From contig NZ_JACHMY010000001.1 of the NCBI RefSeq assembly GCF_014205135.1, positions 620,001-684,000 on the forward strand: a DNA stretch of 64,000 nucleotides, given 5' to 3'. The position numbers were made by a program, and so were the translations under genes. Shown one piece after another: positions 36,097-48,056 of this stretch (its first letter is position 1; each line of letters starts with the position of its first letter). The notes under the pieces were generated by a model that was not told the DNA's origin, ran no database searches, and saw nothing but the letters and a program-made list of their open reading frames with translations. This stretch comes from Kribbella italica. Its GTDB lineage: Bacteria > Actinomycetota > Actinomycetes > Propionibacteriales > Kribbellaceae.

Positions 36097-36216
36097 GTGA
36101 CCGCTTTCCCTGACCTGCACCCGACCGCCTGCGTTCGGCAGGCGTACGTCGTACTGGATGGTTTCGATCGGCCTGCCGCGGAGCAGGCTGAGCTGGTGGT
36201 GGCTACGGCGTGGTGA
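36097..36216 (+). CDS. Possible 39-residue leader peptide translationally coupled to the giant synthase
   Basis: A GTG at 36097 opens a short frame (VTAFPDLHPTACVRQAYVVL...) that ends ELVVATAW. Its TGA (36214-36216) overlaps the GTG at 36213 as GTGA, the usual sign of coupled translation. The residue composition is protein-like rather than the Arg/Pro-rich type seen in shadow frames. No Shine-Dalgarno sequence is obvious. A small hairpin (GCCTGC/GCAGGC, 36127-36143) lies inside it. This is a proposal with low certainty. Confidence 0.3.
   Translation: MTAFPDLHPTACVRQAYVVLDGFDRPAAEQAELVVATAW

Positions 36217-48056: not shown

Follow-up and report, generated by a model that had tools for sequence, protein, structure and literature searches.

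The window analyzed here is a 64,000-nucleotide stretch of Kribbella italica DNA (contig NZ_JACHMY010000001.1, positions 620,001 to 684,000), and the gene of interest is one long forward-strand frame at 36210..48056 that encodes what looks like a hybrid of polyketide synthase (PKS) and nonribosomal peptide synthetase (NRPS). We propose that this pseudo-synthase is very probably retained by its hosts without elongating anything; judged by its motifs, it appears to carry out no chain extension any more. This proposal is carried by the loss of the ketosynthase (KS) nucleophile in every orthologue, together with purifying selection on the folded domains. With much less assurance, and at somewhat short of an even chance, we read the protein as a vertically inherited, trans-acting pseudo-megasynthase that would be centered on its acyltransferase (AT) and its N-terminal ligase.

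Domain layout of the pseudo-synthase

The frame at 36210-48056 (+) comprises 3,948 codons with 0 internal stops, whereas a random frame of the same length at 71.8% GC would be expected to contain about 68 (probability of none, about 2e-30). Pfam and local profiles give the order N-terminal ligase, acidic region, KS, AT, carrier, half condensation (C) domain, and adenylation (A) domain. The Pfam families matched are AMP-binding (twice), ketoacyl-synt N and C, Acyl_transf_1, PP-binding (30.5 bits against a cutoff of 20.8), Condensation (covering only profile positions 193 to 452 of 456), and AMP-binding_C. Residue numbers are counted from 36213 unless stated otherwise.

36210..48056, + strand: whole pseudo-synthase gene; GTG start at 36210 or 36213; open frame with orthologues in 38 of 38 genus genomes
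36276..37949, + strand: AMP-forming ligase at the N terminus, residues 22-579; one residue inserted in the A3 loop (36750-36779); codon for A10 Lys at 37917-37919
37950..42302, + strand: acidic low-complexity region, residues ~580-2030 (~1,451 amino acids), presumably disordered and rich in tandem repeats
38283..38396, + strand: conserved 38-residue peptide, EDP.ERT.ELP..RLAW.R....SIP.PP.RPTLG, in 34 of 36 readable copies, the window included
42303..43475, + strand: ketosynthase without catalytic Cys, residues 2031-2421; Cys to Trp at 42747-42749; His of HGTGT to Ser at 43116-43118; His of NIGH kept at 43236-43238
43740..44675, + strand: acyltransferase, residues 2510-2821; Ser of GHSVGE at 44022-44024; His of AFHS at 44325-44327; slowest-evolving domain
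45090..45332, + strand: carrier domain without attachment Ser, residues 2960-3040; Pro at 45207-45209
45819..46424, + strand: condensation domain, C-terminal half, residues 3203-3404; HHxxxDG half missing
46566..48038, + strand: NRPS-type adenylation domain, residues 3452-3942; A10 Lys codon at 48009-48011

The KS Cys position is W2179, the His of HGTGT is S2302, and the carrier Ser is P2999. No HH dipeptide occurs anywhere in the protein, so the C domain is without HHxxxDG. KS-AT aligns with CurL chain 4mz0 over residues 7 to 809 of 812, and the AT is presumably of the malonyl type, going by a motif rule. The A domain has both its substrate pocket, which by motif position we take to be D V Q T V G E V V and to which we assign no amino acid, and its A10 Lys.

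An earlier note, made from the letters of this DNA, had described one stop-free frame coding for a dismantled hybrid synthase, with KS, carrier, and C domains short of essential residues. Open reading frame, Pfam, and residue checks bear this out, with Trp, Ser, and Pro in place and no HH. The residues that it numbered W2180, S2303, and P3000 are the correct ones, each one higher than in our count, i.e., counted from 36210. Its view that both adenylating ends are intact holds for the A domain of the window, which keeps pocket and A10 Lys, and fails for the ligase, whose A3/P-loop has one extra residue.

Conservation of the gene and its locus

The genus set comprised 38 Kribbella genomes, one per species, and an orthologue occurs in all of them, with 69 to 92% identity over KS-AT and 0 stops inside the matches. 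A family-level search returned the same 38 genomes. In a sample of 245 genomes from the order (E≤1e-135), 39 had a match, comprising the 38 Kribbella and one other; outside the genus, this is 1 of 207 sampled genomes, with a KS-AT of 41% identity. Fetching the 37 other loci (locus labels begin with L, genome labels with G) gave two that are cut by contig ends, L065 and L069, and 36 copies were readable. The core domain order recurs in the readable orthologues. Also, the upstream DUF3052 and Bcp genes are present in 33 of the 37 fetched loci and a downstream ROK gene in 35. Because every genome has an orthologue and the flanking genes are largely conserved, the pseudo-synthase gene is best read as a fixed, vertically inherited part of the Kribbella chromosome.

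Only two of the 36 readable loci contain frameshifts. The orthologue L046 (genome G009) has one, inside the acidic region, for which we found no explanation. L078 (G017) has two; since aceE within the same 20 kb is frameshifted as well, we set these aside as probable sequencing error.

Purifying selection on the folded domains

The ratio of nonsynonymous to synonymous divergence (dN/dS; NG86, 528 pairs) and counts of changes per site were obtained from 33 of the 38 sequences, excluding L046 and L078 (broken frames), L065 and L069 (contig ends), and L081 (divergent). The values for dN/dS are 0.13 for the ligase, 0.19 for KS, 0.077 for AT, 0.29 for the carrier, 0.31 for the half C domain, and 0.125 for the A domain. 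Purifying selection thus acts on this protein, and it is strongest on AT, A, and ligase. For the acidic region, the alignment is unreliable, and its figure of 0.61 was left unused.

Changes at individual positions were counted on the 33-sequence tree, along which four-fold sites accumulated 16.4 substitutions per site. Only two changes, from Trp to Ser, fell on the KS Cys position, and 0 on the kept KS Lys and His or on an altered Asp that was aligned by eye to the former GFGGTNAH loop. Likewise, there were 0 changes at Ser, His, Arg, Gln, and Asn of the AT and at the A5, A7, A8, and A10 residues of the ligase, and 0 to 2 at positions of the A-domain pocket.

These data weigh on the idea that the gene is a pseudogene at an early stage of decay, to which we give almost no credence. 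Domains and active-site residues have been lost stepwise along the tree, and the frameshifts in G009 and G017 would suit such decay. Nevertheless, dN/dS for the six folded domains lies far from 1 (0.08 to 0.31), the G017 copy compared with its nearest relative gives 0.03 to 0.11, the frameshifted aceE of G017 points to sequencing error, and no genome lacks the gene. Decay was rejected because of the dN/dS values, the synteny, and the occurrence of the gene in all 38 genomes, and the sequence data largely refute it. The earlier note had expected a protein kept for something other than chain elongation, recognizable by a shared domain order and low dN/dS per domain, with stops or frameshifts in relatives as the sign of decay; the conserved core order, the dN/dS range, and the absence of the KS Cys from all orthologues agree with retention, and the two frameshifted loci, one of them probably a sequencing error, do little for decay.

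Motif-intact relatives

A search with the ligase against 394 genomes of the class returned 5 genomes at E≤1e-100, K. italica itself included. Comparisons were made with 10 relatives, namely, the paralogue in the same genome (L009; G000:C1:5482001-5502000), six other Kribbella paralogues, and three genomes outside the order. All 10 have the order ligase-ACP-KS-AT-ACP-LLM-C-A-PCP-C, where ACP and PCP are acyl and peptidyl carrier proteins and LLM is a luciferase-like monooxygenase (TIGR04020 in the own-genome paralogue), and in each of the 10 the KS Cys and HGTGT are present, as is the attachment Ser in every one of the three carriers. L091, a fourth relative from outside Kribbella, shows the two KS motifs within the fetched stretch and was left out of the comparisons. 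The paralogue type occurs in 7 of the 38 Kribbella genomes (E≤1e-150), and the window protein is 52% identical to its own paralogue over KS-AT and 46% over half C-A.

Hybrids and window protein have their shared domains in the same order. All 10 hybrids contain an LLM, which in the own-genome paralogue belongs to the MupA/Atu3671 family, and no long acidic region, whereas the window protein has a long acidic region and no LLM. From their motifs, we infer that the hybrid relatives are active, and by sequence comparison the window gene is a member of this family of complete hybrids. The window lineage is missing the LLM, half of C, the PCP, the terminal C, and the catalytic residues of the KS, and the acidic region is additional in it. 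The missing parts probably represent losses from a working hybrid, because the orthologue L081 (G031) branches first in the tree, as sister to all other orthologues. L081 is the most complete orthologue, with both ACPs, a PCP, two C domains, and two acidic regions, in the order ligase, acidic region, ACP, KS, AT, ACP, full C, A, PCP, acidic region, and C. It alone keeps the N half of C, the PCP, and the terminal C, which are missing in 37 of 38. Its KS has Cys changed to Gly and NIGH changed to NIGY, and L081 as a whole looks like a less reduced form, resembling a living intermediate.

Selection was also compared between the two groups. Relative to the seven Kribbella paralogues, dN/dS in the window family is lower for the ligase (0.13 versus 0.26), AT (0.077 versus 0.25), and A (0.125 versus 0.26) and about equal for KS (0.19 versus 0.16), carrier (0.29 versus 0.32), and half C (0.31 versus 0.31). 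Depth of divergence differs between the groups (dS of 0.51 to 0.76 versus 0.71 to 1.11), which makes it safer to compare how the domains rank within each group, and that ranking is reversed: dN for KS versus AT is 0.115 versus 0.277 in the paralogues and 0.112 versus 0.049 in the window family. In pairwise counts, where pairs are not independent, KS divergence exceeds that of AT in 528 of 528 window-family pairs, that of A in 517, and that of the ligase in 520, as opposed to 0 of 45 for AT, A, and ligase alike among the 10 relatives.

Variation of catalytic residues

Across the 38 genomes, the KS Cys position holds Trp in 27, Ser in 10, Gly in 1, and Cys in 0, and the HGTGT position has its His in 5. 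The carrier Ser is kept in 11 genomes (confirmed in L049, L077, L089, L093, L096, and L097) and lost in 27, while a first ACP is recognizable in just 4 of 36 copies: L074, L077, and L078, where it precedes the KS, and L081. In 24 genomes, all of one clade, A10 Lys of the A domain has become Arg; according to a study of GrsA, this Lys matters for reaching the adenylation conformation (PMC8341999). In 16 of 36 readable orthologues, the window among them, one residue is inserted in the ATP loop of the ligase; the window sequence is SSGSSTGTPK, compared with SSGSTGxPK in motif-intact relatives.

By contrast with these domains, the AT is the sole domain intact everywhere, with GHSVGE, RAFHS, and TGQG in 38 of 38 genomes. 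The earlier note was right about the AT motifs; the AT, which lies in what it called the dismantled middle, is the most conserved domain, with invariant catalytic residues. The reading that both adenylating ends are intact and so constitute the function is not supported, given the A10 Lys and ATP loop changes. As read from these sequences, whatever the protein does should be compatible with losing the A-domain Lys, the carrier Ser, and the KS nucleophile.

In a further alternative, the protein is still biosynthetic and makes a genus-wide metabolite, with other proteins providing the missing carrier, condensation, and release functions in trans and the KS serving only as a structural domain. 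The ligase, AT, and A domains keep most of their motifs and pockets, some lineages retain the carrier Ser and the first ACP, L081 retains both ACPs, the PCP, and two C domains, and the genome has 21 PP-binding matches, the pseudo-synthase's own included. Against it, the KS Cys needed for acyl transfer is absent from all orthologues, A10 Lys and carrier Ser are lost in 24 and 27 of 38, respectively, no assembly-line partner was found among the 18 window open reading frames scanned, and the partner modules would need to be genus-wide. We consider this alternative improbable.

The N-terminal ligase itself is AMP forming, as the earlier note had it, and its reading as a fatty acyl-adenylate ligase (FAAL) is weakened by structure matches. 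The best match is 6ulw (286 bits), labelled "amino acid adenylation domain-containing protein" and taken here to be StsA, followed by McyG (4r0m; 238 bits), while 3pbk, the top-scoring chain among those that carry a fatty acyl-adenylate ligase label, reaches only 107 bits. By these sequence scores, the ligase is nearer to 6ulw and McyG than to FAAL-labelled chains.

The acidic region and its conserved peptide

In the window, the ~1,451 amino acids between the ligase and KS borders contain 21.6% Asp plus Glu and 5.2% Lys plus Arg. The same kind of region is present in 33 of 33 measured orthologues (704 to 1,451 amino acids, 19 to 27% Asp plus Glu, and 1.4 to 5.8% Lys plus Arg), with composition kept and sequence not; the two regions of L081 are shorter, at 370 and 316 amino acids. 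Acidity is a property of the frame in use, because the other five frames are less acidic (1.4 to 11.8% Asp plus Glu) and filled with stops (6 to 54). GC content at third positions is 0.75 in the acidic region versus 0.89 to 0.95 in the enzyme domains of the same gene, perhaps as a result of repeat expansion. The 38-residue peptide was recognized in 32 readable copies by pattern and in L046 and L078 by alignment; L079 and L081 are without it. No second copy was found in the genome, where the next match has an E value of 0.4.

One could imagine that the acidic region is the functional part and that the enzyme domains are passengers. Its kept composition in all measured sequences and the conserved peptide in 34 of 36 speak for this, but the flanking enzyme domains are far better conserved, and we regard it as very improbable.

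Genomic neighborhood

Only DUF3052, Bcp, and a tRNA separate the gene from nearby aceE, and a fatty acid synthesis operon (accD, FabF, AcpP, FabH, and FabD) is situated about 14 kb away. AcpP is encoded at 19256-19669 on the - strand. Proximity to aceE and to this operon is suggestive only. The tRNA serves as an upstream landmark.

35639..35712, + strand: tRNA-Val(TAC), present in 15 of 16 orthologous loci scanned

The earlier note had found no other assembly-line gene, thioesterase, or phosphopantetheinyl transferase in the window. None occurs among the 18 window open reading frames scanned; these do include the housekeeping type II fatty acid synthesis and accD operon, at 16.4 to 21.8 kb. 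Within it, FabD (20581-21771, - strand; Acyl_transf_1, GHSVGE) is fused in frame to a C-terminal biotin/lipoyl attachment domain and is grouped with FabH, AcpP, FabF, and accD-like carboxyltransferase genes. Beside the pseudo-synthase gene, 48200-48745 (- strand) encodes a small hydrophobic protein, membrane associated as judged by eye and without a Pfam match, relatives of which (41 to 91% identity) occur in 17 of 37 orthologous loci.

Possible function

For the trans-acting pseudo-megasynthase that we tentatively favor, a mechanism can be sketched. The AT would still accept malonyl-CoA, the N-terminal ligase would still adenylate a carboxylic acid, and both would hand their products to carriers or acceptors in trans. 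KS-AT and C-A domains meet at interfaces, and on this basis the KS and half C domain may have been retained as structural platforms for AT and A. With A10 Lys gone from 24 of 38 genomes, the A domain could be mainly an amino-acid-binding module. The acidic region, with its conserved peptide, may recruit or position a partner.

Several points weigh against this sketch. No acceptor carrier or partner was identified, and the window contains a housekeeping FabD with GHSVGE, so the cell is not short of malonyl transferase. The KS, carrier, and half C domains may do more than act as platforms, because constraint on them is much the same as in the paralogues with intact motifs. Moreover, with the carrier Ser kept in 11 of 38 and a recognizable first ACP in 4 of 36, lineages may differ in their chemistry, and the P-loop insertion in 16 of 36 ligases could impair adenylation. 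Neither structure prediction was usable, each having a shallow alignment: mean pLDDT was 40 for the ligase plus conserved peptide (L044 first, with L042, L043, and the window) and 31 for KS-AT (window first, with L042 to L044).

The closest competitor is a ligand-sensing or scaffold protein for which catalysis is not needed: ligase, AT, and A would bind an acid, malonyl-CoA, and an amino acid, respectively, and the acidic region would transmit the signal or recruit a partner. This would explain an A pocket that is nearly invariant despite the loss of A10 Lys in 24 of 38 genomes, and it would accommodate the altered ligase ATP loop (16 of 36), the missing carrier Ser (27 of 38), and an acidic composition maintained without sequence conservation in 33 sequences. 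It is nevertheless less likely than not, though somewhat ahead of a still-biosynthetic protein, since the AT catalytic residues and the four ligase catalytic positions examined are invariant in 33 sequences, more than binding alone seems to require.

Taken more broadly, it is possible, if still doubtful, that a whole antibiotic-type assembly line was converted in the genus ancestor to a core protein that makes no chain, i.e., a scaffold that senses metabolites or handles malonyl groups and carries a giant acidic disordered region. In the K. italica genome, it is encoded near the gene for pyruvate dehydrogenase E1, with the fatty acid synthesis operon about 14 kb away. If true, this would be an example of a megasynthase exapted into a core protein, as well as a warning that a family of conserved clusters may yield no product. 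The motif-intact own-genome paralogue, L081, and lineages that differ in A10 Lys, carrier Ser, and the first ACP make up a natural series in which the importance of each part could be tested.

Comparison with known systems

By its motifs, the window protein is not a functional type I PKS elongation module: Ser and His of the AT are present in 38 of 38 genomes, while the Cys-His-His set of the KS is incomplete and the window carrier lacks its Ser. Nor is it a functional NRPS module, for the C domain is without HHxxxDG and no PCP follows the A domain, even though pocket and A10 Lys are in place. Genome mining would probably label the locus an NRPS-PKS cluster and predict a product, whereas the motifs predict no elongation. 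In the accessible portion of a survey that applied antiSMASH to 38 Kribbella genomes, groups of similar clusters are described, NRPS-PKS-I among them, and that portion makes no mention of inactive domains (PMC9962454).

The adenylation domains of 6ulw and McyG (4r0m), the closest solved relatives of the N-terminal ligase, reportedly load a carrier of their own enzyme. Unlike them, the window family has a recognizable first ACP in only 4 of 36 orthologues, and the P-loop of the window ligase is altered.

A non-elongating ketosynthase (KS0) is another KS that performs no condensation inside a synthase. The KS0 of MmpE takes its chain from one ACP, and the C215A mutant loses product (PMC7619045). 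Unlike this KS0, the window family has no Cys for transacylation in any genome (0 of 38), and the adjoining carrier has no Ser in 27 of 38.

Among the top-ranked titles and abstracts of the open-licence literature, we found no description of this protein, and the top-ranked titles included no whole NRPS or PKS kept as a scaffold or regulator.

Pseudoenzymes kept as scaffolds or regulators are a known general class. The window protein shares with them the loss of catalytic residues under purifying selection; here, the conservation is observed for the KS, whose noncatalytic role is putative. In the Kribbella protein, the AT, ligase, and A domains are more constrained than those of its motif-intact paralogues, despite predicted non-elongation.
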